A DNA stretch of 37,041 bases, from NCBI GenBank assembly GCA_016208165.1, contig JACQYL010000056.1:1-37041 (forward strand). Reading direction: 5' to 3'. Every line of letters begins with the position of its first letter. The first letter of the stretch is position 1. Shown here piece after piece: positions 23,461-37,041 of the stretch. The notes under the pieces were generated by a model that did not search any database, was not told where the DNA came from, and saw only the letters and a program-made list of their open reading frames with translations. This DNA is from Deltaproteobacteria bacterium (lineage in GTDB: Bacteria; Desulfobacterota; Desulfarculia; JACQYL01). The translations under genes were made by a program, and so were the position numbers.

Positions 23461-25500
23461 TTACGGCTTGTTCATACTTAAAGAAACCTCAAGCACCTCA
23501 TCTATGCTACTTACCGGGGTCAGCTTGATACCGTCGAGCACATAGGAGGGTAACCCCTCCGCCTCTTTCAAATTATCAGCAGGCAAAAGAACCTCTTTGA
23601 CTCCTGCATCGTAAGCAGCCCGGACCTTCTGTTGAATGCCGCCAACCGGGAGCACCTTACCCATTATTGTAATCTCACCGGTCATGGCGAGGTCGTTTCG
23701 CACGGGGGCCTTTTTCAAAGCCGATACGATCCCGGCAACAATTGTGATGCCGGCAGACGGACCCTCCTTGGGTACGCCCATAAAGGTCGCCAGTACCGCT
23801 ACATCAAAACTCTTTCGCCATTCGGCGCTTATGCCGAGGTCCTCGTGCTTTGCCCGGATGTACTGAGCTGCTGCTTCGATGCTTTCCCGCATGACCCTTT
23901 GGATCGACCCGAGCGGTACGATGCGTCCGGACCCCTTGGTCGCTTGCATCTCAAAGTGAAGGATGCAACCATGGTCCCCTTCGACGGCCAAGCCTACAAC
24001 CTCACCGACTGAAGGCTTCTCGGGGAGCGCAACGCGCTGAACACGATTGCTATCCGGAAGCTCAGGCACAACTTGCTTACCCGACGGCTGCATCAGCGAT
24101 CCTAAAGAAATACGGTCATACTCGCCCGGTGCAATCAAATGGAGCTGGTCTCGCACCCGTTGCCGCAGTTCGCAGGACAGACTCAAAATGTCCTCAAGTT
24201 CCTCGTCGGCTACCCGACCATCAGGGTGAAGCAACTTCAGCAGGCCAGAGCTGGTTTTGATAATAGCGCGTTGATCGCGGCCAGAGATACCCTGCGTCCT
24301 CCTGGCATGGTCAACTATATCAAAACGAGAACGTACCGCTCCCAGGAGATCAATACGGCGAAGCTCGTGCATGATCTCGCAAAAGTAATCCGTAATGAAT
24401 CCATAGTCCTTCGAATAGCTGTTTGGGGCCAACTTCGGAATTTCCCACCCGGGCAGATAGCCATGGATGCGGTCTAAGAATGCGATGACCTGCATAAAAT
24501 CCGGCAGCGGCTCAAAAAGGTGGTAATATTTTTCATGTGGCAGATTACCTTGGACGTCCAGGTTGCCTACAAATACCAAACTGGCGAAAGCAAGGATTTC
24601 CTTCTTGCCCCTGCTGAATTTCGCATCCTGCATATATCCCTGCATGATGCTTACGAAGGACCTTGGATCGGTAAAATCAGTGTTCGCGATCTCGTCAAAA
24701 ACAACGGCGTCCCGAACGCCGACTTCGCCAATCTTCCCGGTATTGAGGTTGATGAAAAGCTGGGCAGGAGTCGCCTTGCCGCCGGACAGCACGTGAGCGT
24801 AATATGAGATATTGCGATAGAGATAGGTCTTGCCGGTTTCCCGAGGTGCAAGTTCCACCATGTTGACGTTCGTTTCGACCAGAGGAATGCAACGGCAAAG
24901 AAAAAGTAACTTCTGTCGCCGGGTCATTTTCGAAGGATCAAGCCCACAGGAGTTTACCAAGACATCAATCCATTCGTCGGTAGAGAACTCCTCGCGACGC
25001 TCTATGAACTCATCAAGATTGATGACGCTGACCTGAAAAGGCATGAACCCGGTGATCTTGAAGGGTCTGATTTTCTTGTTATGAATCTCGGTCTCGTCAT
25101 AGGTCAGGTCGATGGTTCCCCACATTCCGCCCGAAAGCAGCATGGGGTATTGACGGACGATGCTTTCCGGTATGTTCACAAAGTTCTCGTTGATGGCGGA
25201 AATCGTGCCCCAATACTTGTCCTCCGTCTCAACCAGCCGGGCTTCCAGGCTCGCGATTACCGAGTGGCTGCGGTTTTCACGAATGTAATGCCTGATTTTT
25301 TCGGCCTCCGCCCCATAGACGAAGGTCTCCTTGAGCCTTCTGACGACCTTTTCCATGTCCTCGTGGAAGGTTTCCTCGGAGCAGTAGTTGTCGATCAGGT
25401 ACTCCAGGACATAGCGCGGAAATTCGTCAACTCCCGTGTTAATCGTATGGGCCTTGTTGACAACCTTGCCTCTGAAGACCTCTTTCAATTTCAGGTTCAT
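23461..25500 (-). CDS. brxL: BrxL, Lon-like BREX protein
   Basis: 679-aa BrxL, the Lon-related component of BREX phage-defence systems. The N-terminal and central AAA+ part has a P-loop variant, [14 protein letters not shown] (about residues 217-229), and a Walker-B-like [12 protein letters not shown]. The C-terminal part is a Lon (S16) protease fold with catalytic Ser582 in EGPSAGITI and Lys625 in [10 protein letters not shown], 43 residues apart as in Lon. An upstream ATG in frame exists at 25563, but the start at 25500 ([17 protein letters not shown]) has GGAGG 7 nt upstream and matches the family N-terminus. It is the last gene of the BREX operon, 94 bp after pglZ. BrxL occurs in type 1 and type 4 BREX. 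Confidence 0.93.
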
Positions 25501-25594
25501 CCACAGTCCTCCACCCGCGACACAGGAACAACCACGAGCGATTCGGGGTTCCGACTCGCCCATGTTGATTGGGTTGTTGTCTTGGCATCCGGCA

Positions 25595-28504
25595 TCACTT
25601 CATGCTCCTTGGGGTCAAGCCCAATATCTTCCCGAGATGAGCTGGTACTCGGCGAACGATCTTTTCTGAATTCAGGCGCATGGAGAACCGAATAGTCCGC
25701 GCTTTTCTCACCATGCGTTGCGCCTCACGATAGGTGACGCTGATTCTCAGCAGCCGCTCCATGATGCCAGCCTTGCGCTCTTCATCCGAAGCATCGGCGG
25801 CATCTGGAACAAATCGAAAAACGACGTCTCCTCCCGCCGTAGAAATGTATTCGACTTGGGAGGGCAAGGCCGGTGTTTCCTCTTTGTTCTGATATACCGC
25901 TTGCGCCTCGAGCCGGAGCTCCCTATGTTTATGAGATTCCGTAAGTTCAACAGGCATCTTAAACTCGGCTTCTTCCCCTTCAATGAGTTCCGCGGGCCCG
26001 GTAATCGGGCCGAGGACAAGCAGACCCTCTTCCGGCGCTTTCACACGCATGGCAAGCATGGGCACAAGCATTTCCTGGATCGAAATCCCACCGTGTGAAT
26101 ATGCATCCGGATTGAAATTGGCTTTCGGCCGGGCCAGGGCGTAACCGGTTTTCGGAAAAATGATCGATTCGAATTTCTTTTGCCAACTCTGTTTGGTGGA
26201 CCGGTCAAGGGCTTCCCCGGCGTTGGGCATCCGCAGATCACCGACCGGAAACTCCAGGACGCTATCGCGAACCTTGCGCGGTGCGCCGACACCGTTCAGG
26301 GTCTGTCTAAGCCACGCGTTCTGATAGAAACAATCATTCGGCTCATTCAACCAAGGCAAATCAATACGGATACGCTCGCGACCGATAGCGCCAAATCCAT
26401 GGTCGGCTATTACAAAGACCTTGGTATCTGGTGTTAGTCCACGAATGATGGCCATGACCTCGGTGTCGATGATGTCCTTGATATGCTGCTGATAGATGAA
26501 TGCCAGCGGGCGTCCGGGAACGCATCGACCATCGGGCAGTGTTTTCACCGGAATCTTGTGGAGTTCCTTGTCACAGAGTTCAAAGATGAAGAACTCGATG
26601 CTGCCTGCTCGATACCGAACGGTCTCACCGGTTCCCATACCATCGGGAGCCACGACTTCGACATCCCCTGCATATCCGAACTCTCGGTGCATCGCTTCTT
26701 TAAGAAGAGCGTCTTCGCCGCGCCGGGTGTCGAAGGAATCGGGAAATGTTCCAGCAAAGATCGCTTTTCTGCTTATGTGGGTCTCTGAGGGCAAAAGGGA
26801 CGTGGCGGGGTAATCCGCAATGATCTCCATGCGATCCTCAAATATCGGCCTGACCAGCTCGTCCCATATGTCGTAACGCATGCCGTCGAACACAAACACC
26901 ACTGCCTTTTCGCCTTGGGGGTCCCAATGAGGCTTAAGGCACCGCCTCAAGAACTGGCTGGTCAATCTTACTTCCGATGAATCCGAAGCAACCCACGATT
27001 TGTACTTTGCGGCCACCAGTTCTTGGTAACGGGCGTTCACGCTCGCGAGCGCCTTTTGCGTGTCGTCGCGCAGCAAGCTCACGCGCTCTCGAATACGATC
27101 TTGTGCCGACAGAAAAGCGGGCGGCAGATCGATTGCGGAACGTGGGAGAAAATCGACGCTAAACACCAAACGCTCCAGAGCAGACAGAAAGTATTCCAGA
27201 CGGTTTGCCCGACGATCATTCCATAAGGCTCGGAACCACTCGAAAGTCAACTCTGAGGTTGGTTTCACACTCAGGTTCTTTACGGCGACATCCAAGGCGT
27301 CCCGGATGTCGCGGATTGATCGCACCAAACGATATGCCGCCTTCAGATTCTCCCAGGCCGGCGAAGGACGTTGTTCGATAAACAGGTCCTTCTTGCCATC
27401 TGTTTCTGTGAATAGCACCTGATCGAGTTTCTTATGTGAAGCAAGGGGCGGAGCGTCGGAGAGGAAACTGTCCAGGCCGACCAATAGGGCCAAGGATCGG
27501 ATAAGGACCGAATAATGTTCATTCTCGATAACCTCCGCAAAGCGACCGCTGGCCGTAACCTTCAGTTGATCGAGAAGGATGAGGTTGATTGCATCCTTGG
27601 ACAACGATGATTCGACATCCTGAAGGTCGCGATGAGCCCGATGGGGGTCAATAGACACAAGTTCAGGTGCGGCCTCGCCAATCAGTGCTTTGTCGATTTC
27701 ACTGAAAGTTGTGAGGTCCGGGTCAATACTGGCAAGCATGAGCTTCCAATGCTCAACGTGCTGGGATAGTATCGTTGACAGATAAAAAGCCCTGACTATC
27801 AGTTCCGGCGGCGAGTCAGCGAACCAGCAGAAGGGAGCCGGGGCGCTGCGCAGCTCGTCGCGGATGGAACGCGCTACTTCCGGGGCGAGCGAATCAAGTT
27901 CCTCAAGCGCCGGATACCCGATAAGGCCGATACGCCAGTAGCTTCTTGCCTCCGGGCGTTTGAAAGCGGCCTCGGGCACCCCCAATGCCGAATAGGCAAC
28001 AATCGTCTTGAAATCGTGGTCAGTAAACCGTGTCGGATGCGCCACGCGCAGGCTCGCGTGTGCTTTGAGAACAGCGTCTAAGCACCCCGTAATCAGCCTT
28101 GCGAACCTTGGATCATTGGACTCTTGAGGCCAGTTCGGGTCCCCGGTCTTTTCAATCAGAAACTGCCGTAGACTGATTTCGATCCGTGCCGTCTCAGCGG
28201 TTCTGGAAAGAAGATCAGGGTAAAAAGGGGGAGGCGCTTTTGTCAGAGACGCATGGGCCCTCCTTCGCGCCGGAGCACGGTCGATCAGGAGCAGCTTCTT
28301 CGTATCCTTTGAAACGGTTGCCCTTTCAAAGAGTTCCCTGAAGACGAGATTCGTAGATGCGATGATCACCGTAAATCCGCTCTCATTAGCGAACCGGTGG
28401 ACAGCACCGTCGGCCTCGGGGAGAAGTCGAAGCGAATCCTGGACAAGCAGAATCTGCTCATCCTTCAGCGCTTCCAACTTATCAATTACCCAGCTCGAAA
28501 GCAT
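25595..28504 (-). CDS. pglZ: PglZ, BREX alkaline-phosphatase-fold protein
   Basis: 969-aa PglZ (BrxZ), the hallmark protein of BREX and Pgl defence systems. The alkaline-phosphatase-superfamily domain covers about residues 530-800: [18 protein letters not shown] with metal-binding Asp540, [18 protein letters not shown], and [12 protein letters not shown] with Asp701/His702. The N-terminal about 500 residues are helical and of the PglZ type. Length is typical. GGAGGG precedes the ATG, and the gene starts 12 bp after the brxC-like stop, so the genes are co-transcribed. Its precise activity in BREX is not settled in what I know of the literature. Confidence 0.93.
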
Positions 28505-28516
28505 CGACTCGCCCTC

Positions 28517-31500
28517 CTATTCCAACTGGAGCATTGGAAGGGAGTCGTCGTCTCCCTCGTTTTCGGTGAACTGGGTTTCAAGGAACCGGCCGAATTCCTC
28601 TGCGACTGTCCCGACCTGGTCCTTCTGAATGGTGCCAACATTGGGCCTGAAGTCGGCGATTCTGACTCGCTTCACAACGATGCGCTTGAGGTATTTGTTA
28701 ATGATGTCCACGATCCCAGGCGGTTCCCGCACGACTTTGACGAAATAGGTGCGAAGCTCTTCAGTGGTCTTGCACGCCAGCAAACCGGAGATGGTCGGCT
28801 CCGTCTTTCCCTGCTCAAGCCGTTCCCGCACGGTAGGATTCAAGAAAACCTCCATCTTCCGGCGGAATACATCGTCGAGCAATTGACCGGCCTTCTTGGC
28901 TGCATCGCTTGCCGTCTGCGCATGGATTGACGCATTCACAAAAGACAAACCGCATTCATGCAACGGACCGTTGCGCAGGTGATCCTCGACGGAAGCGCGC
29001 GAAGGAGATGGGCACTCGAATATTTCAGAACGGAGATGGGTCAGACGGGAAATCAGTTTGTCCGTGCTTGGCGGTTGCAGTGCCGTGACACCATCCAGGA
29101 CGCCGAGTGCGTTAATGTCGGCTCCGGTTATTGCATCCTGAATCTGCTTGCGACTGGCGTCGATCCTGTTCACCACGGATTCGTGCATCGGTACGTATAC
29201 CGATGAGTACTCGCGGATCATTGCGGCAATCGTGTCTCTTTCCTCCTCGACCGGTGGGAAATGGCCCACGAGTTCGGTCTTCAGCTTTACGTCGGAATCG
29301 ATATAGTCTTTCAGGGTGCCAAGCTTGGCCCGGACGGCTTCTATAGCCTTTCGTGCCTGAGCCAGTTCTTTCTGGTCTCCCAGGGTGATGGCGCAGTAGG
29401 CATGAGCTGTCCGAAGCTCGGTCTCGTATTCAAGGAAAGCCCGAAGGTCCCTGCAGTTTTTGAGTCGATTGGCAAGATCGTCCACCTCGGCAGGGGTCGC
29501 CATGTTCGTATCAAAAGCCTGATACCCCATGGCCTCTTTAAGGGCGTAAAGAAAAAGGTAAATGTCGTCGCCGCCATCGATATTTGCGGAAAAAAGCTTC
29601 ACAACCTGCGCCAGTTCCGCTTCATAGGGATTGACGGACTTCAGTGCGTCGAACAGGCTCTGCGCCCGGCTCGCCACCCGTGACGAGGATTCTTTTTCCT
29701 GGGCGAACAGTTGCCGTAGCTTGGCCCGGTGTTCGGAGATCATGGCGTCATCGTGAGTGGTGGGGATTTCGGTTCCGAGCAATTTCTCCGCATACGGTCT
29801 CAAGACTTCCCAATTCTCGGGCTTGGCCACTTTTTGAATCTCGCCCAAGGCATCCAGCACTTTGGTCGAAAACTCCACATCGGCTATGTTCGAATAGTCG
29901 AGCAGGGGAAGGGCAAGCCCGGCCTTGGCCCCCAAGGTGATCCGCACACGCCCCTCCCGGACCAGACAGAGCATATAGAGCTGAACCATGCGTCGCGTGA
30001 GCCCGTAATCCTTCGGACCGCCGATGCCCATGAAGTTCTTGTAAAGGGTATCCACCTTTATGGTTTGGCCATCGTCCGTCAACTTGTCATCGATGAACGT
30101 CCACATCTCCTGCACATAGGCGTTGCCCGAAACATCCAGTTCTTTTTCGGCGCTCTTTTTCATGATGTTCAGGCCGAAGCCGAAGTTCTGTGCGGCGCTT
30201 ATGTTCTGATTGGGCTTTGCCCCCTTGCGAATCCGGCCTGTCCTGACGATGCCGTTGATGACCTTGACCCCCTCTTCCTTGCGGAATACGAAGGGCGGAT
30301 CAAACTTGATGTCCCTGGACACATAGGCCGCTGTAAGCACCCGATCCACCAACGGCGTCAGGATGGCCGCCAGTTCGCCGGCCACGCGGAACTCCATCTG
30401 GGTGTTGTTCAGCGCGTCGACACGGCCCCGGGCGTAGCTGTTGTCCACGATCTTTACGATCTTGGCAAGGTCGGACTGGAGCGCGTTGGAAACCCAGTTG
30501 ACCACCGCGACGGCATCCTCGGTTTCCTTGCCCTGCCCGTCGGAAATGAGCTTGCGGTAGGCGGCAAAATCCATGAGCCGGTCGCGTTCTTCCTGGGTCA
30601 GCTCTGCCGGGGTCCAGAGAAGGACGCGTGGGTCCTTGCGTCGCTCGACCAGCTTGAGAATGGAGGTGTCCGCGACGTGGCGGGCGCCGATATATACGGC
30701 GAAATCAAGATCTGTCTGATCGCTTTCAATGGGTGGTAGCGGCAGATTTTCGGAGAACATTCGCCCGAGATCGCGCATCCCCACCCGCCCGGAAATCTGC
30801 CGCCCTCGCCAGATCACATCCAGATTTTGATCCCCGGAACGTGCAGCGCCTCGGTCCTCCCATGGTGCAATGAACGGAGCGATGTCCCTGAATGTAGACC
30901 TGACGCCGCTGGACAAATCGATGGTCATCTGGCGCGTGCGCACCGGCCACTCGTCAAGCGCCAGGAGGTGGTCCCACGCTTCCTTCTGCATAGCCTCGTT
31001 GGATTCCGCTTCGTCTCTGGCCTTGCTAAACTCATCCCTCGGATCAACCCCGGTAAAGACGGGATCAAAGCGGTATCTCGGCCGCTTCTCCTCGTCGAAG
31101 GCCTGGACGATCTGTCGTAATTCCTTCTTGAGGTTGTCGGCGATAGTTTCGTAGTGCTGGTTGTTTTCGTCCGGATTGGCGTCGGCGTCCCGCTCGATGA
31201 GCACCGAATTGGCGATCTCCTCCGGCGTGATGCCCTGCTGGCGCGTGCGGGAAATATGATAGAGGAAGAGGGTCTGGATGACCTTGACGCCCTTGTCGCG
31301 GTGAACCTTCAAGTAGCCCTTGGTCAGGCCGTCAATCTGGCGCTTGCATGCCTCGTAAGCCCGATAGTCCGTCTCGCGTTTCGTTTTGATAGCCACCAGC
31401 CCGGCATGGACGCCGCTCGGGTCCTCTTCGTAACGCACAGCCTCATCGAACAGCTCCCACAGGCGTATGAGCTCGCGGCCCTTGTTCTTAATTTGGTGCT

Positions 31501-32854
31501 TCAGGGTCTGATGCATGAAGTGGATCGCGGAACGAGTCGTGGTCAGCTCATAGGTGATCGCCCGCAGGACCTCGATGGCAGGTTTATGGAAAGGGAAAAA
31601 GTGACGAAAGTCCGGCTCGCCGATGCTATTGGGCCAAGTGAATCCTCGCTTGTAATGGAGATAATAGTTGCTGATGGCCGCCGGTTCTTTGATCTCCCTC
31701 ACGCGCGCCAGGACGATGTCGTAATAATCCTTGTCCTCTTCGAGCAATTTCACCAGTTTCAACCGGTCGTCGGCGATGATGTTCTTGACGCCCATCTTGC
31801 TTTCGATGGCCTGTTGGGCCGCGCAGACCGTCCACACGGGCAGATTGTGGATTTTCGCCAGGCGGTTGGACAGTACGACCAGGGTCTTCTCGTCATCGGT
31901 CCGCTGATCCTCGTCCCGGTTCTTCATGAACAGCGACACTTCGTCCAACACCAAAAGAACCCCGCTATACCCCTCGGCCAGAATCGTTTCTATCATGTGC
32001 GTGAGGATGTCCTCGGTCTCCGCGGCAATCTGGGGCTGGACTTTCAGATATTCGGTGTAGAAGCGCCAGAGCTTATTGCCGCAGCTCCGTTTATATTCCG
32101 GTGTTTTGTTCTGCTGGATGGTGCGGAGGAAGTCGTCAACCTCTTCGAATTCATCCTCGTCGAAAAACTTCGGGGCACGCAGGAACTTGGCCAGGTCCCT
32201 CCGGTAGCGCTCCATGTCCTCGGTGATGAACCGGTCGGCCAACAGCTCCACAGGATAAAGCGAGATGTTCTTGCCGAGTTCGACCTGTATCTGCTCCTTG
32301 GCCGCATCCAGGATGTACTCGGAGAGACGCCGGCCTTTATCGGTCAGGCCCACCGTACCGCTGCCCGCTCCTACCAGTGTCTTGACAATGACGAAGATGC
32401 CCTTGGTTCCTTTGCTGCTTTTGGCCTCGATTCCCGCCTCCCAGAAACGAAACAGGGACTCGCGCTTGCCGCGGCCGGAGGCGTCTTCCTTCTTCTTGAC
32501 GATATCCCAGGCATCCTTGCGTCCCAGAGCCAGGGCGGAAAGACAGCAGAGCAGATGGGATTTACCGGAACCGAACTCAGCCTGAATCCAATACCCCTGG
32601 CCAACCGGATTCTCCTTGCGCTCCCGCTTCCAGGGGGCGGCCATGTTGCGCAGGATGTCCGTGAGGAACGGCCGGACCGGATCGATTTGAAATTCCTCAA
32701 TGGTCTGCAGCTCCGGCTTGCGGGCCTTACGGTTCGCCTCGGAGTTCGAATCAGCCCAGACATGCTTCTCCAGGGAATAGACGGAGATGATCTTGTCCGG
32801 AACCGTGCAGATCTCGCTCAGGTCTTTCCTGAAGGTAAACAGGTCATCGGCCAT
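28517..32854 (-). CDS. brxC: BrxC/PglY-like large P-loop ATPase
   Basis: 1445-aa ATPase at the position of BrxC/PglY in BREX operons. The Walker A is FGSGKS (94-99 in YWIQAEFGSGKSHLLCCL), and the Walker B is GVLLVLDEVSLFM (298-310). The N-terminal module FRKDLSEICTVPDKIISVYSL, then EEFQIDPVRPFLTDILRN is typical of this family (DUF6079-like). The rest is long and helical, with a conserved-looking RVRIADFRP near the end. It starts with AGGAGG, 2 bp after the HEPN gene, and ends 12 bp before pglZ, so it lies in the same transcript. Canonical BrxC is about 1200 aa; this one is longer. Confidence 0.85.
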   Translation of the reverse strand: MADDLFTFRKDLSEICTVPDKIISVYSLEKHVWADSNSEANRKARKPELQTIEEFQIDPVRPFLTDILRNMAAPWKRERKENPVGQGYWIQAEFGSGKSHLLCCLSALALGRKDAWDIVKKKEDASGRGKRESLFRFWEAGIEAKSSKGTKGIFVIVKTLVGAGSGTVGLTDKGRRLSEYILDAAKEQIQVELGKNISLYPVELLADRFITEDMERYRRDLAKFLRAPKFFDEDEFEEVDDFLRTIQQNKTPEYKRSCGNKLWRFYTEYLKVQPQIAAETEDILTHMIETILAEGYSGVLLVLDEVSLFMKNRDEDQRTDDEKTLVVLSNRLAKIHNLPVWTVCAAQQAIESKMGVKNIIADDRLKLVKLLEEDKDYYDIVLARVREIKEPAAISNYYLHYKRGFTWPNSIGEPDFRHFFPFHKPAIEVLRAITYELTTTRSAIHFMHQTLKHQIKNKGRELIRLWELFDEAVRYEEDPSGVHAGLVAIKTKRETDYRAYEACKRQIDGLTKGYLKVHRDKGVKVIQTLFLYHISRTRQQGITPEEIANSVLIERDADANPDENNQHYETIADNLKKELRQIVQAFDEEKRPRYRFDPVFTGVDPRDEFSKARDEAESNEAMQKEAWDHLLALDEWPVRTRQMTIDLSSGVRSTFRDIAPFIAPWEDRGAARSGDQNLDVIWRGRQISGRVGMRDLGRMFSENLPLPPIESDQTDLDFAVYIGARHVADTSILKLVERRKDPRVLLWTPAELTQEERDRLMDFAAYRKLISDGQGKETEDAVAVVNWVSNALQSDLAKIVKIVDNSYARGRVDALNNTQMEFRVAGELAAILTPLVDRVLTAAYVSRDIKFDPPFVFRKEEGVKVINGIVRTGRIRKGAKPNQNISAAQNFGFGLNIMKKSAEKELDVSGNAYVQEMWTFIDDKLTDDGQTIKVDTLYKNFMGIGGPKDYGLTRRMVQLYMLCLVREGRVRITLGAKAGLALPLLDYSNIADVEFSTKVLDALGEIQKVAKPENWEVLRPYAEKLLGTEIPTTHDDAMISEHRAKLRQLFAQEKESSSRVASRAQSLFDALKSVNPYEAELAQVVKLFSANIDGGDDIYLFLYALKEAMGYQAFDTNMATPAEVDDLANRLKNCRDLRAFLEYETELRTAHAYCAITLGDQKELAQARKAIEAVRAKLGTLKDYIDSDVKLKTELVGHFPPVEEERDTIAAMIREYSSVYVPMHESVVNRIDASRKQIQDAITGADINALGVLDGVTALQPPSTDKLISRLTHLRSEIFECPSPSRASVEDHLRNGPLHECGLSFVNASIHAQTASDAAKKAGQLLDDVFRRKMEVFLNPTVRERLEQGKTEPTISGLLACKTTEELRTYFVKVVREPPGIVDIINKYLKRIVVKRVRIADFRPNVGTIQKDQVGTVAEEFGRFLETQFTENEGDDDSLPMLQLE

Positions 32855-32855
32855 T

Positions 32856-33251
32856 TTATCGTCCTCCTAACTCCTTTGAGCCAATTTTTTTCCAGCACGC
32901 CTGGGCGGCTTCAATAGCATCCCGGGCATCTTCCTCACCCGGCAGCCCATCCGTCAATGAACCCGGCAAGGCATCGGGATAACGGGTCGGAATATAGAAA
33001 ATGTCGAGTTGGGCCAAATCATCCTGTAAATGCGAAAGATATCCCGTTGGCAGCAGGCCAAGCAGATCGACAATCGAATGGGTTCGAGGAGGTGTTTTCC
33101 CAATATTCGCTATCAAGCCTTTTATGCATTTTTCAACGCACTGCTGGCTGTGAAAACAGACCTGGTTATAAATACCTTCTTTCAATGCAAGTTCCGCCAT
33201 CTGTAAATCCTGGCGGGCGAATTCCAACCATCGATCACCTGGCGCGTTCAT
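32856..33251 (-). CDS. HEPN-domain protein paired with MNT
   Basis: 131-aa HEPN-domain protein of the PF05168 type: WLEFARQDLQMAELALKEG, then FHSQQCVEKCIKGLIANIGK and PPRTHSIVDLLGLLP. In MNT/HEPN pairs, the HEPN partner is usually the RNase-like toxin or the modified partner. It overlaps the preceding MNT gene by 17 nt (33235-33251) and stops 2 bp before brxC, so it is translationally coupled on one side and in the BREX transcript on the other. The start at 33251 is chosen over the longer frame because it matches the family N-terminus (MNAPGDRWLEFA) and gives the overlap typical of the pair. The RxxxxH RNase motif of HepT is not clear here. Confidence 0.8.
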   Translation of the reverse strand: MNAPGDRWLEFARQDLQMAELALKEGIYNQVCFHSQQCVEKCIKGLIANIGKTPPRTHSIVDLLGLLPTGYLSHLQDDLAQLDIFYIPTRYPDALPGSLTDGLPGEEDARDAIEAAQACWKKIGSKELGGR

Positions 33252-33609
33252 AGACGATTTCCCCCTTGCCGATGATTTCTTCTTTGAAAAACGGCCGATC
33301 CGCACATAGCCGGTCAAATTCCTCCGGCGTGTACACCATGATATCCATGCCGACTTTGGGTTGAAGGAGTTTGCGGACCTTTTTGATTCTCTGGAAAAAA
33401 GGCAGTTGGGTACGCTCCACGACCACCAGATCGATATCGGACCATTCGTGAACCGAACCAGTTGCCAGGGTTCCGAACAAAATCACCTTTTCAGGTGACC
33501 CGTGCTCCGTCAGCAAGCCAACGTAACGAGCCAACTCAAGATCCAGCAGCTTTTTCCGTTTCGCCGAATATTGCCGTTTATTCAATTGATCGTTCATTTG
33601 TGTCACCAT
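33235..33609 (-). CDS. MNT-type minimal nucleotidyltransferase
   Basis: 124-aa nucleotidyltransferase of the MNT family. The metal/nucleotide site is FGTLATGSVHEWSDIDLVV, the GS-x10-DxD pattern with Thr in place of Ser. The start at 33609 has AAGGAA about 6 nt upstream; the frame extends further upstream, but only as a shadow of the methyltransferase gene. It is followed with overlap by the HEPN gene. The pair is inserted between the methyltransferase 3' end and brxC. MNT proteins in such pairs act as antitoxins by nucleotidylating the HEPN partner. Confidence 0.8.
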   Translation of the reverse strand: MVTQMNDQLNKRQYSAKRKKLLDLELARYVGLLTEHGSPEKVILFGTLATGSVHEWSDIDLVVVERTQLPFFQRIKKVRKLLQPKVGMDIMVYTPEEFDRLCADRPFFKEEIIGKGEIVYERAR

Positions 33610-33619
33610 AGTGTATTCC

Positions 33620-34036
33620 TTATACCGATTTGCCCTTTCGCCTTTGCGCTTTACCCTCATCTCTCGCCAGCATGCGTGCGCAAACCTGGTAATCTTCCTC
33701 GACGTTAACCATGGCCTCCTCGGTGAGGTTGTCGGGGTTGAGTCCGCCTTTCTCGTACAAGAGCTTGCCCTGCTCGTAGAGCCCGGCCCGCTTGCAGTGG
33801 CGTATCCACTCGGCAATGGTAGCGTCGCTCGGCCGTTCCTGATCGGGGATGGCAGCGCCCAGTTCGAGCTGGGCGATATAGCGCTTCACCCTCCGGCCCA
33901 GTCCCTTGACCCGGGCTTCACGCTTGGCCTTTTCCTCTTCCTCGGAGGCGGGAAGCCGCCAGGTGCCTTGTTCGGTCTTGTAGAAATAATCGGGCAGGAA
34001 TTCGGCCAGTTGACGGCGTGGCTTGTCCTTCACCAT
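33620..34036 (-). CDS. C-terminal part of the BREX methyltransferase in the -1 frame
   Basis: 138-aa frame from the first ATG, but it is open further upstream to a TGA at 34166-34168. That upstream stretch reads as natural protein (EKIGAFIKGHLKKHPG; EGVHYSDLFEHYIYMVKD) across the 3' end of the methyltransferase gene. It continues KPRRQLAEFLPDYFYKTE, then a helical region ending ARMLARDEGKAQRRKGKSV. It is most simply the C-terminal domain of the methyltransferase, separated by a frameshift. Whether the two parts join by programmed frameshifting, are translated separately or represent decay is open (see the slippery site at 34090-34096). A separate small gene is the alternative. Confidence 0.6.
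   Translation of the reverse strand: MVKDKPRRQLAEFLPDYFYKTEQGTWRLPASEEEEKAKREARVKGLGRRVKRYIAQLELGAAIPDQERPSDATIAEWIRHCKRAGLYEQGKLLYEKGGLNPDNLTEEAMVNVEEDYQVCARMLARDEGKAQRRKGKSV
33629..33658. repeat. 30-bp direct repeat upstream of the MNT gene (copy 1)
   Basis: 26 of 30 bases match the segment at 36761-36790. The shared core is CCCTTTCGCCTTTG on the plus strand. It ends 20 bp before the MNT start at 33609, within the last codons of the methyltransferase C-terminal frame. Confidence 0.7.
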
Positions 34037-36111
34037 GTAAATGTAGTGCTCGAATAGGTCGCTATAGTGAACCCCTTCGTCGCCCGGGTGTTTTTTGAGA
34101 TGTCCCTTAATAAATGCACCAATCTTCTCACCTCGTGGGTACCGAATAAGTCCGGCTCTTTCTGTTCAAACAAGTTTTTGATTACAGGTGTTTTGACCTC
34201 ATCAGCCACCTGCCTTAATAGCTCGTCGAAGTCGTACGCTTCCATTTGACCGCTACGCACCATGCGGCTCACGACCTCGTCATAGATGCGGTCCTTGGTA
34301 CAGCCGGGGTTTGCGCCGATGTAATCACCGATAATTTGGCGGACCTTATCGTTAAAAGTAGTTTCGTCTTCCTCGCCGGTGATAGCAATGGTCGCCGCTA
34401 CCTCACCTGACTTTGGCTTGCGAAAGTTGATGACAAGATCACGTTTGTTGACTTTATCTGCAAAATATTGATTTGTAGTTTTAGTGGCCGAATCAATGTA
34501 GAGTGCTTGTTCAGTCCTCTCCACGACAAATCCAGCTTGGGCCATAATATCTTGCACCAAAGCCCAAGTGCCTTCTGAGGTATCGTGATAGCAGAAGGAA
34601 GTGCAACGTCCTGGTTTTAATACTCGATAGCATTCTGCCATTGCTTGGCGCATCATATTAGCCCAGTCTTCTTCTGTTGTTCCACGCACTTCATTAACTA
34701 TAATCTCATCTTCATGCCAATGCATATCTAAATTAAGCCAAGTTTCCCATATGAAATTTAATTCACCATATTGGACTTTTTCTGCATACGGGGGATCTGT
34801 AAAAATATAGTCTACAAATGAAGTTGGGATTCGCATAACACATGCATTGGATGTATCAATAAACAGTTTGGATTGCTGTAATGCTATATTGTTATAGCCG
34901 GATATCATGTCACCCAAAGATTCATGCATAAATCTTCCAACATGAACATCATGCAATAACTGCGGTATGTAATAGGTACCCTTTTGAATGCGACCAATTC
35001 CATCATTATTGTGCGCCATCATCCGCGACGACTTTAGAAGAATACTAGTGAACATAAATGAAAGCTGATCTTTGTGATCACCTGCATTTTTAATTTCTTC
35101 AAGGTACGCTGCCAAAGCCCATAAATTGCGTTTGGTAAAGAGTTCGGCAACAGTTCGAAAATTACGTCCCGGCCGCCATTCATTCCCCCAAGGCTCCGTG
35201 TCAGAGTCAACATGCATCATCCGATCCTTTGGGTACCAGTACGGAATATCCTTCGCCTCAATATCCCGAATCTTCTCCAGATTATATTTCACGAAATAAT
35301 CGCGTTTCTTTTTATCCGGGTCGTTGTGTCGCCTCTCGCCACGTGCCGGTTTACATCCGGCTTCGCAGATATAGCTCACCAGCACCGGCACTGCGCCAAA
35401 TTTTTTAGCTCGCGTGCTGATCTCTTCCACAATGCCTCTTTTGTGGCAGCGGGGGCAGGCGCTGATTTTCTTGGGTTTACCCTTGGCAGTAGTTCCTTCT
35501 ACCTCCACGCAATCGAACAGCGTCACCTTCTCCAGGCAGCGCGGGCACTGAAAGACTTGGGAATAAACCGTGTAGGCCGTAGTCGCCTTGCCGTTGCAAC
35601 GGTCGCATCGGGTCTCGTAAAGCCAGTCAATCTCCGGCTTGACCTTGCGCTTGAGATCCTCGAAAGCTTTCTGGAGTTCATCCACGTCAACCGGCGCGCA
35701 GTAATTCTTAGTGATGAAGGTCGCCGCCGGAGAGCGGTCGATGGCGATGGCCTTACGGCCCTCCATCAGCGCAGCTAGGGCTGTGCCGCCCGAGCCGCAG
35801 AAGGGATCGAGCACCAGATCGCCGGGTTTGGTATAGTGCCGGATGTACTGGCGGATGGCATCATGCGGCTTCTTCGACCAGTAGGTGTGCATGTTATAGA
35901 TGGCCGTGGCCTTGGTGGTTTCAATGGGCTTATCGAAAGCGGAAACATCATAATCGTCCGTCTTCGGATCGTATGGCCGCTCCTTGATATGCTGCTCCAC
36001 GAATGACCGCAGGTTCGGGTTCGGCTTATCGCCGGAATAGTAACCCTCCGGCATCTTGGGGACTTCTTTTTTCCAAAGGCTCATGTTCTTGTCAGGGTTG
36101 CGTTTGGGCAT
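34030..36111 (-). CDS. Amino-DNA methyltransferase of the BREX locus, main part
   Basis: 693-aa SAM-dependent DNA amino-methyltransferase, probably adenine-specific. The SAM motif is VLDPFCGSGGTALAAL (DPFCGSGG 102-109), and the catalytic motif DPPY is at 439-442 in DYIFTDPPYAEKVQYGEL. Between them, cysteines at about 169/172, 189/192, 219/222 and 249/253 form zinc-ribbon-like knuckles (CDRC, CPRC, CPRC, CEAGC), an unusual insertion that may read DNA. It plays the PglX role but lacks the canonical 1200-aa PglX layout and the N-terminal DUF1156 pattern. The final 20 or so codons of this frame look like read-through of a shifted frame. The region 34430-35240 is clearly AT-richer than the flanks. 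It starts directly after hepT. Confidence 0.87.
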   Translation of the reverse strand: MPKRNPDKNMSLWKKEVPKMPEGYYSGDKPNPNLRSFVEQHIKERPYDPKTDDYDVSAFDKPIETTKATAIYNMHTYWSKKPHDAIRQYIRHYTKPGDLVLDPFCGSGGTALAALMEGRKAIAIDRSPAATFITKNYCAPVDVDELQKAFEDLKRKVKPEIDWLYETRCDRCNGKATTAYTVYSQVFQCPRCLEKVTLFDCVEVEGTTAKGKPKKISACPRCHKRGIVEEISTRAKKFGAVPVLVSYICEAGCKPARGERRHNDPDKKKRDYFVKYNLEKIRDIEAKDIPYWYPKDRMMHVDSDTEPWGNEWRPGRNFRTVAELFTKRNLWALAAYLEEIKNAGDHKDQLSFMFTSILLKSSRMMAHNNDGIGRIQKGTYYIPQLLHDVHVGRFMHESLGDMISGYNNIALQQSKLFIDTSNACVMRIPTSFVDYIFTDPPYAEKVQYGELNFIWETWLNLDMHWHEDEIIVNEVRGTTEEDWANMMRQAMAECYRVLKPGRCTSFCYHDTSEGTWALVQDIMAQAGFVVERTEQALYIDSATKTTNQYFADKVNKRDLVINFRKPKSGEVAATIAITGEEDETTFNDKVRQIIGDYIGANPGCTKDRIYDEVVSRMVRSGQMEAYDFDELLRQVADEVKTPVIKNLFEQKEPDLFGTHEVRRLVHLLRDISKNTRATKGFTIATYSSTTFTW
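34090..34096 (-). other. A-AAA-AAC slippery heptamer, possible -1 frameshift site
   Basis: In the methyltransferase zero frame the codons are TCA AAA AAC, that is A-AAA-AAC, the classical X-XXY-YYZ pattern. A -1 slip leads exactly into the frame that continues as HPGDEGVHYSDLFEH and the C-terminal part. No clear downstream stem-loop is seen. Since the -1 frame also looks protein-like before the heptamer, a small upstream deletion is an equally good explanation. Confidence 0.35.
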
Positions 36112-36474
36112 CTATTCCTGCTCCTTCGATCCCGGCTTTTCATCCTTTAAAAGTCTTCTGCAGGCGGTTTCGAGCGCATCCAGTTTGTTTTGCACCACGT
36201 CCCAGACTACGGGAAGGCTGACGCCGAAATACTCATGGGCCAATATGTTTCGCAGCCCCACAATCTTTCGCCACTCAATATCACCGGCCCGTTCCTTTAC
36301 CGCCTCCGGCAGGCGTCCTGCCGCCTCGCCGACGATCTCGAGATTGCGCACCACTGCATCCTGGGTCTTCCGGTCCCGTGTGAAGACGTCATAACTCATC
36401 GAAACCGTGTATTCCCGGATCTGGCCGATGGCCTCCAGGATGTCGTCTATATACAGGCGGGGATCCCTACGCAT
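36112..36474 (-). CDS. hepT: HepT-like HEPN RNase toxin
   Basis: 120-aa HepT (DUF86) protein. The catalytic and AMPylation motif RxxxxHxY is intact: Arg75, His80 and Tyr82 in LRNILAHEYFG. The N-terminal pattern RDPRLYIDDILEAIGQI and AVVRNLEIVGEAAGRLP are typical. HepT is an RNA-cleaving toxin inactivated by its MntA partner through AMPylation of the motif tyrosine. It overlaps mntA by 8 nt and abuts the methyltransferase ATG, so it lies in the BREX transcript. Confidence 0.88.
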   Translation of the reverse strand: MRRDPRLYIDDILEAIGQIREYTVSMSYDVFTRDRKTQDAVVRNLEIVGEAAGRLPEAVKERAGDIEWRKIVGLRNILAHEYFGVSLPVVWDVVQNKLDALETACRRLLKDEKPGSKEQE

Positions 36475-36757
36475 AAACCACCTCCTGCTCTATGATCGGC
36501 CTGAGACGAGGTTTTACGGTATCCGCCAGAACCAGATCCACAGGCCGCTGAAGAACCTCTTCCAGCCTGAATTTAAGGTCCATGTAATTATCAAAGGTAG
36601 GCTCAGCCAGTTCCACGATGATATCCACATCGCTTTCGGAGCTTTCATCCCCTCTGGCGCACGAACCGAAAACGCCGATGCGCATCACTGAAAACCGCTC
36701 ATTTAACTCCCGGCGGACTGCGGCAATTTTTTTAACTGCATCTATACTCGTTGCCAT
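36467..36757 (-). CDS. mntA: MntA-type AMPylating antitoxin
   Basis: 96-aa nucleotidyltransferase with the MntA signature GS-x10-D-x-D: Gly31, Ser32, Asp43 and Asp45 in VFGSCARGDESSESDVDIIVEL. It is expected to AMPylate and neutralise the adjacent HepT. The start at 36757 (MATSIDAVKK) is chosen; the longer frame from 36793 would translate the purine-rich repeat in front of it. An AGGG-containing purine tract serves as Shine-Dalgarno. It begins 32 bp after the stop of the BrxF-like gene. Confidence 0.87.
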   Translation of the reverse strand: MATSIDAVKKIAAVRRELNERFSVMRIGVFGSCARGDESSESDVDIIVELAEPTFDNYMDLKFRLEEVLQRPVDLVLADTVKPRLRPIIEQEVVYA

Positions 36758-36760
36758 TTC

Positions 36761-36790
36761 TTTACCCTTTCGCCTTTGCCCTTTGCCCTT
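36761..36790. repeat. 30-bp direct repeat upstream of mntA (copy 2)
   Basis: Matches 33629-33658 at 26 of 30 positions (core CCCTTTCGCCTTTG). It ends 3 bp before the mntA start and touches the last base of the upstream gene's stop codon. Confidence 0.7.
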
Positions 36791-37041
36791 CACTCCCTAA
36801 TCTCCCATAAGTGGTTTTCGGCAATCAGGTTTGTGGGCAGCGTGTAGTCACCCTCGTCCATTTCATGAAACATGATGATCCGGCCACGCGACCTCCGGCC
36901 GGGCAGAAGGAGCAGCACCCGGTCCTCGTCCGCCGCCATGGTTCGTAGTAGGTTCAGCTCGATGTGATAGGCAAAAAGCATCTCCAGGTTGGACAGGACC
37001 AGGATGCCCTGGCCGGTGAGATTTGCGCGCAGGAACCGCTC
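36790..37041 (-). CDS. BrxF-like protein, 3' part only
   Basis: 83 codons of a gene running off the right edge, ending in TGA at 36790-36792. Visible are ILVLSNLEMLFAYHIELNLL (beginning like the Walker-B strand and following helix of BrxF), DRVLLLLPGRRSRGRIIMFHE and NLIAENHLWEIRE at the end. The layout, an LxNLExLF motif then a strand ending in PGR followed by a beta hairpin, resembles the small ATPase BrxF that opens type 3 BREX operons. This is by-eye resemblance only. It precedes mntA by 32 bp on the same strand. The N-terminal P-loop that would confirm it lies outside the window. Confidence 0.4.
   Translation of the reverse strand, partial: ERFLRANLTGQGILVLSNLEMLFAYHIELNLLRTMAADEDRVLLLLPGRRSRGRIIMFHEMDEGDYTLPTNLIAENHLWEIRE

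Follow-up and report, generated by a model that had tools for sequence, protein, structure and literature searches.

The window analyzed here, a stretch of 37,041 bases, is the whole of contig C56 in a 142-contig draft genome. It carries a BREX locus (Table 1) whose PglZ, BrxC/PglY-like ATPase, BrxL, methyltransferase and BrxF-like genes had been named in an earlier note; profile matches find all five where they had been placed, and all are on the minus strand. Read leftward from the right edge, the order is the C-terminus of the BrxF-like protein, an MNT/HepT pair, the PglXI-like methyltransferase, a second MNT/HEPN pair, the BrxC/PglY-like ATPase, PglZ, and BrxL. PglZ and BrxC/PglY encoded together are a trait of the BREX superfamily. 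Both are identified by trees (see below) and by Pfam matches above cut-off: 35 bits for PglZ (cut-off 25) and 44 bits for DUF6079 in BrxC (cut-off 23); the PADLOC BrxC model gives just 25 bits. BrxL is matched by the PADLOC BrxL model (554 bits) and by TIGR02688 (470 bits, cut-off 329). Its start was set by alignment to relatives, the ORF itself opening at 25563. To the left of BrxL are genes for a HEAT-repeat protein, a phosphoglucose-isomerase-like protein and others; no BREX traits were found among the eight genes scanned there.

Table 1. Features of the BREX locus in the window (positions in the 37,041-base stretch).
Feature	Position	Strand	Remarks
BrxL, 679 aa	23461..25500	-	BrxL N-terminal domain, AAA+ ATPase, Lon-type peptidase domain
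PglZ, 969 aa	25595..28504	-	motifs DGMR, DHG and HGG as in reference PglZ
BrxC/PglY-like ATPase, 1445 aa	28517..32854	-	Walker A and B intact; with type 3 in tree
HEPN-domain protein, accessory	32856..33251	-	start set by eye; homologue at the same place in L004
Minimal nucleotidyltransferase (MNT), partner of the HEPN gene	33235..33609	-	
Methyltransferase C-terminal remainder, out of frame	33620..34135	-	
PglXI-like (BrxXI) DNA methyltransferase, 693 aa as read	34030..36111	-	DPFCGSG, CxxC pairs, DPPY
HepT-like HEPN RNase, accessory toxin of pair	36112..36474	-	RNILAH motif
MntA-like nucleotidyltransferase, accessory antitoxin	36467..36793	-	GSxARG and SDxD
BrxF-like protein, residues 92-174	36790..37041	-	NF033453 19.9 bits; residues 1-91 on C50

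The right edge of the window is an assembly break, and contig C50 of the same genome carries on the BREX locus. The two contig ends share an exact overlap of 54 bases, and reading through the junction gives a complete BrxF-like protein of 174 aa. C50 supplies the first 91 residues of this protein and the gene that heads the operon (C50:17529 onward; 706 bits in a search of the host genome), which we refer to as HhH-BrxA. Beyond these, C50 carries gyrA and a gene for glycerol-3-phosphate dehydrogenase, meaning that the BREX locus lies near housekeeping genes. A truncated system without BrxA is ruled out, because the BrxA-like gene sits on C50. The rightward extension that the earlier note had proposed thus yields the start of BrxF and a gene that the note could not see.

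We read the first gene as encoding a BrxA-like DNA-binding subunit. Its front resembles UPF0758_N, a RadC-type helix-hairpin-helix (HhH); the protein from locus L005 passes the Pfam cut-off and that from L009 misses it by 0.1 bit. An alignment of the C-terminal part, the last 250 residues, to an annotated BrxA from a haloarchaeon gives 27% identity over 239 aa; the haloarchaeal protein itself passes Pfam BrxA. Comparison by hhalign matches the first gene with type 1 BrxA (E 6e-6, probability 85%) and gives no match with the type 3 BrxA set; tblastn with type 1 or type 3 BrxA queries did not find it in 16 stretches at E 0.01. The UPF0758_N part is missing from the first gene in two further loci (L006 and L125). 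For BrxF, the NF033453 match lies under the cut-off of 50, and hhalign gives E 6.5e-4 with a probability of 27%, so that the BrxF assignment, like that of the methyltransferase, is a weak one.

A scan with BrxC identified seven loci, with 72–92% identity, in MAGs assigned to several phyla, some of which may be binned wrongly. Within the phylum of the window, a full-length relative occurs in 3 of 395 genomes: the host itself, G329 (locus L004), and G331, a single-contig genome with two BREX copies. A weak BrxC match in G105 (28.6 bits, L021) has no BREX neighbors and was set aside. The second phylum sampled has matches in 3 of 400 genomes; the query is one of the three, and another (G778) has a broken BrxC. 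BrxL matches in a third phylum number 5 in 291 genomes, one of them close (the query itself) and four distant. In IMG/VR there is one complete locus (L022, which recurs as L127), and L128 and L129 are partial; L129 has BrxL and a shortened PglZ, and BrxC was not found in its 86-kb record. The phage collection gave no BrxC match, and the sole match in the plasmid collection is a Halorarius record, discussed below. Four other plasmid matches tried as references (L025, L027, L028 and L064) are not BREX of this kind. The lineage is therefore rare, at <1% of each genome sample, and its near copies across several phyla suggest either transfer between hosts or binning errors.

Nine loci share six components: HhH-BrxA, a BrxF-like protein, a PglXI-like methyltransferase, BrxC, PglZ and BrxL. 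These are the window with C50, L003, L004, L005, L009, the two copies in G331, L022, and a locus in G397. For L003, the first gene is represented by its C-terminal part only, with no match to it in the initial 138 bases of the contig; the G397 locus is split over two contigs with complementary parts of BrxC. Seven of the nine loci have the order HhH-BrxA, BrxF, methyltransferase, BrxC, PglZ, BrxL, and in the other two (L005 and G397) the methyltransferase gene follows PglZ and precedes BrxL. The BREX locus is real and conserved, since recurrence of the same genes in nine loci is beyond chance.

The trees that we used to place individual components cover BREX types 1, 3 and 4. Type 2, the type with PglW, PglX, PglY, PglZ, BrxD and BrxHI, was left out; a search of 385 genomes for a type 2 locus to serve as a reference gave none, with no control match either. 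Type 1 and type 1-like references came from two bacterial plasmids, one haloarchaeal plasmid and further genomes, type 3 references from four plasmid loci, one of which (L062) is itself without an annotated helicase, and type 4 references from genomes, with the PAPS reductase confirmed in four. Among the genome references, the type 1, type 1-like and type 4 labels were given by blast to named loci and by Pfam. Five “type 1-like” loci have no BrxA or BrxB by blast, and a Haloarcula row (L024) is counted as type 1 though it carries a BrxE gene, a type 6 trait according to a 2026 survey (PMC12839542).

BrxC and PglZ, whose catalytic motifs are intact, group with type 3. In the BrxC tree, the lineage joins a haloarchaeal relative (support 100) and then type 3 (89); AU tests reject a BrxC clade with type 4 (p 0.0055) or with type 1 (p 0.0009). 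In the PglZ tree, the lineage groups with type 3 at a support of 91. For both proteins the lineage is sister to the four type 3 references rather than nested inside them, with both supports below 95. The PglZ tree is also one of four in which treekit flagged long branches that meet, together with the full-length BrxL, Lon-free BrxL and peptidase-domain trees described below.

The best PADLOC match of the window methyltransferase is PglXI (355 bits), with Cys pairs before DPPY. About 25 codons present in L004 are missing from it, and the frame changes near position 34130, leaving the C-terminal region out of frame. This break may be real or a misassembly, and it may leave the BREX copy in the window silent. 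In the lineage, DPFCGSG lies near residue 100, followed by the Cys pairs and by DPPY near residue 440, whereas type 3 reference methyltransferases have DPPY/F near residue 60, Cys pairs, and DPPF near residue 500. A single group (support 99) unites the lineage enzymes with type 3 BrxXI, a haloarchaeal enzyme and L025, an RM-like enzyme from a plasmid; within it, type 3 BrxXI is nearer to L025 than to the lineage. When relatives are compared with L009, identity falls to 26–38% in one part of the methyltransferase insert; it is 67–91% in the C-terminal region (59% for the window copy with its broken frame) and 71–95% for full-length BrxC (for G397, 75% over 1153 residues and 44% over the last 274). 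A divergent insert beside a conserved C-terminal region and BrxC is as expected of an exchanged recognition domain.

BrxL is the most distinctive component of the lineage. Over its C-terminal 185 residues it shares ~42% identity with annotated Lon proteases (peptidase family S16), and the Lon_C match of the window protein reaches 174 bits. Ser582 and Lys625 align with Ser679 and Lys722 of E. coli Lon, with a spacing of 43 in both. This Ser-Lys dyad, which the earlier note had not described, is present in all eight lineage BrxLs aligned and in those of L122 and L129 (10 of 10 examined). Both dyad residues are found in none of the 16 type 1-like reference BrxLs (one has Ser alone and one has Lys alone). 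The same is true of all 24 other scorable loci from a set of 30 BrxL loci, three of which could not be scored; these 24, two of which have no Lon domain, overlap with the 16 type 1-like BrxLs. The four distant BrxLs from the third phylum also have no dyad, and the type 4 BrxLs examined are without the Lon domain of the lineage. Published descriptions of BrxL, as far as the available text of each goes, report a protein with no obvious Lon active-site motif and a C-terminal domain 14% identical to Lon (PMC10164562), or a C-terminus from which the catalytic residues are missing (PMC9009780). By contrast, the tail of the lineage BrxL looks like a working Lon protease.

The peptidase-domain tree places the lineage BrxL with true Lon, separate from the tails of type 1 BrxL (100/100, unrooted). 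It includes 11 of the 16 type 1-like BrxLs, represented by their last 195 residues; of the 25 loci considered as Lon references, 13 were tried, 7 of these gave no plus-strand ORF, and 6 were kept together with E. coli Lon. When the Lon domain is omitted, the lineage BrxL branches deeply on its own, separate from both type 1 and type 4 (type 1 clade 95/95; a fragment, T4_L079, and M_L028 were excluded from this tree). The full-length tree had placed the lineage beside the Haloarcula BrxL (support 92), as would a plain type 1 BrxL; we set that reading aside in favor of the Lon-free tree, in which a clade with the Haloarcula BrxL has p 0.06 and is not rejected. Structure models of HhH-BrxA and of the Lon domain had pLDDT values of 45.8 and 45.0 and were unusable.

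The genes that define other BREX types were sought in 16 stretches by tblastn at E 0.01. None of BrxHII, BrxP, BrxB or PglX was found, typed control loci being positive; four BrxP queries carry PAPS_reduct. The earlier note had listed BrxA, BrxB and any helicase as absent from the window. This holds for BrxB and BrxHII, while the BrxA-like gene lies beyond the edge. The note had also seen no BrxP, which is borne out.

Compared with known systems, the lineage is most like type 3. BrxC and PglZ are closest to type 3 in the trees, which strengthens the type 3 leaning that the earlier note had suggested; the BrxF-like protein (a match below cut-off) and the methyltransferase (a PglXI hit with Cys pairs in the insert, not nearest to type 3) give it weaker backing. 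Unlike type 3, all nine loci have BrxL, and no BrxHII was found; BrxHII is present in 77% of type 3 systems and is not universal (PMC12839542). Further differences from type 3 are the position of the BrxA-like gene, which comes first, is usually fused to HhH and is unmatched to type 3 BrxA, the N-terminal motif and tree position of the methyltransferase, and the gene order. The lineage shares with type 1 a BrxL with a Lon-type C-terminal domain and a BrxA-like protein that resembles type 1 BrxA by profile, but differs from it in having no PglX or BrxB that we could find, in the rejected BrxC clade, and in keeping the dyad, which the type 1-like BrxLs examined lack. With type 4 it has in common the run of BrxC, PglZ and BrxL, in that order, which had led the note to propose a partly type 4 system. 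That part does not stand. Three results rule out a type 4 origin: no BrxP/PAPS reductase was found, a methyltransferase being present instead; the AU test rejects a BrxC clade with type 4; and BrxL has a different domain layout. As for Lon itself (LonA), the likeness is confined to the peptidase domain, since the N-terminal and AAA+ parts are those of BrxL.

Another relative, outside the lineage, is a plasmid locus of Halorarius halobius (NZ_CP101162, 12605-23841; L023), where genes for a methyltransferase, BrxA, a small protein of BrxF size, BrxC and PglZ follow one another. In the BrxC tree, this locus provides the nearest outgroup of the lineage (support 100). The small gene is BrxF by position, the model match being just 12.9 bits. 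Unlike in the lineage, no BrxL or BREX helicase is annotated in this row, and a metallophosphoesterase gene, which could be its effector, follows PglZ.

According to the available text of the 2026 survey, BrxL is restricted to types 1 and 4 and wholly missing from types 2 and 3; a small unassigned share of hits was discarded (PMC12839542). The available parts of PMC9716671 and PMC12458937 describe nothing resembling this lineage, and no description of a BREX system combining BrxL, BrxF/PglXI and a RadC-type BrxA was found in what could be searched of open-license PMC full texts. The lineage is a new BREX variant, with a combination that published types are said to lack. The suggestion of an unclassified variant in the earlier note is thereby upheld: subtype models put the components in no single known type, and the gene order that it had proposed to look for in other genomes recurs.

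Several loci contain additional genes, with two HEPN/MNT-type pairs inserted in that of the window (36112-36793 and 32856-33609). No R-x4-6-H motif was found in the HEPN protein of the second pair, and the listed ORF of its MNT partner, which runs to 33816, continues out of frame across the methyltransferase remains. L004 also has HEPN/MNT insertions, L005 an MNT-like gene plus a HEPN gene, and L122 AbiE genes. In five of the nine loci (L003, L009, both G331 copies, and L022), no HEPN/MNT or AbiE pair is annotated between core genes, the small ORFs having been partly scanned with Pfam. HEPN/MNT pairs, DUF7662, AbiE and kinase genes vary between loci and look accessory. The BREX locus of L122 (7798-14982) includes a Ser/Thr kinase-HD fusion together with its AbiE toxin-antitoxin pair. 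Proteins of ~270 aa are encoded directly before BrxC in L016 (4829-5650), L022 (9190-9996) and L006 (7366-8175); those of L016 and L006 contain DUF7662, and ~75 aa of those of L016 and L022 resemble the methyltransferase C-terminal region. Downstream of the G331 BREX copies are defense-like genes, for a SIR2-nSTAND-TPR protein (L018 12011-15091) and for an AAA+ ATPase with a subtilase-type protease (L015 6832-10441). In L009 (15387-20357), BrxL is followed by genes for another methyltransferase, of 779 aa, and for a protein of 876 aa with no Pfam match.

We also observed a second chimeric BREX, in L083 (1995-17592, genome G072) and L084 (1528-15582, genome G373). Both loci encode an Eco57I-type methyltransferase of ~1310 aa and PglZ, with BrxC and BrxL that group with type 4; tblastn found no BrxP in either. 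L083 has a UPF0758_N-DUF4007 fusion. DUF4007 is termed BrxA-like in the survey (PMC12839542), meaning that a RadC-type HhH is found twice on BrxA-like proteins.

We propose that the lineage is probably a distinct form of BREX in which a type 3-like core is combined with BrxL in the effector slot, and which restricts phages on the basis of methylation, with BrxL acting as a protease loaded on DNA. The biochemical steps that follow, above all the protease role, we infer from gene content, gene order, phylogeny and intact motifs. The operon is headed by the BrxA-like DNA-binding protein, usually with its RadC-type HhH front. The methyltransferase would methylate an adenine within a host site that its variable insert domain recognizes, and HhH-BrxA, BrxF, BrxC and PglZ would form a complex that depends on this mark and senses unmarked DNA. 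PglZ may then nick the unmarked DNA; type 1 PglZ can nick DNA, according to the survey (PMC12839542). BrxL, in the place that the BrxHII helicase has in most type 3 systems, would load on DNA as an ATP-driven ring and degrade proteins met on, or pulled from, phage DNA. We propose degradation on the ground that the Ser-Lys dyad of the Lon peptidase tail is intact. A more specific version, in which this DNA-loaded AAA+ protease tracks along unmethylated phage DNA, breaks down the replication or packaging proteins bound there, and represents the ancestral state of BrxL, type 1 having lost the dyad and type 4 the whole domain, is possible but tentative.

BrxL could instead have replaced BrxHII purely as a DNA motor in a type 3-derived BREX, the Lon domain being structural or used for assembly, with no proteolysis in defense. 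In the survey, BrxL is proposed to take over the task that SF2 helicases perform in other types (PMC12839542), and characterized type 1 BrxL is a DNA-binding ring and a DNA-dependent ATPase without a protease site (PMC10164562); the failure to find BrxHII in lineage loci points the same way. We nevertheless consider a motor without proteolysis rather unlikely, given that the dyad is present in every lineage member examined with the spacing of E. coli Lon, and that the lineage domain, unlike the diverged type 1 domains, remains similar to true Lon. Conservation of the catalytic residues speaks for a peptidase that is used. Alternatively, the peptidase would be active but regulatory: BrxL would degrade BREX subunits or antitoxins (e.g., the MNT partners), switching between methylation and restriction or triggering cell death. 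Lon is known to degrade antitoxins, and the HEPN/MNT and AbiE genes listed above would offer substrates; the five loci with no such annotated pair between core genes make the pairs look optional, and this regulatory role seems improbable to us.

A different kind of explanation is that assembly or binning has merged two BREX systems. The host genome is a draft, the locus spans two contigs, and several relatives are MAGs with doubtful binning. The same arrangement, though, is found twice in the single-contig genome G331 and in other separate assemblies, so that we give an artifact hardly any credence.

The mode of anti-phage action of BREX is still debated, and BrxL has been held to be no protease. 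With a lineage that has both the Lon dyad and a type 3-like core, single-residue mutants offer a way to test what BrxL does. The existence of this lineage also goes against the rule that type 3-like systems have no BrxL, and suggests that BREX systems can exchange one effector for another.
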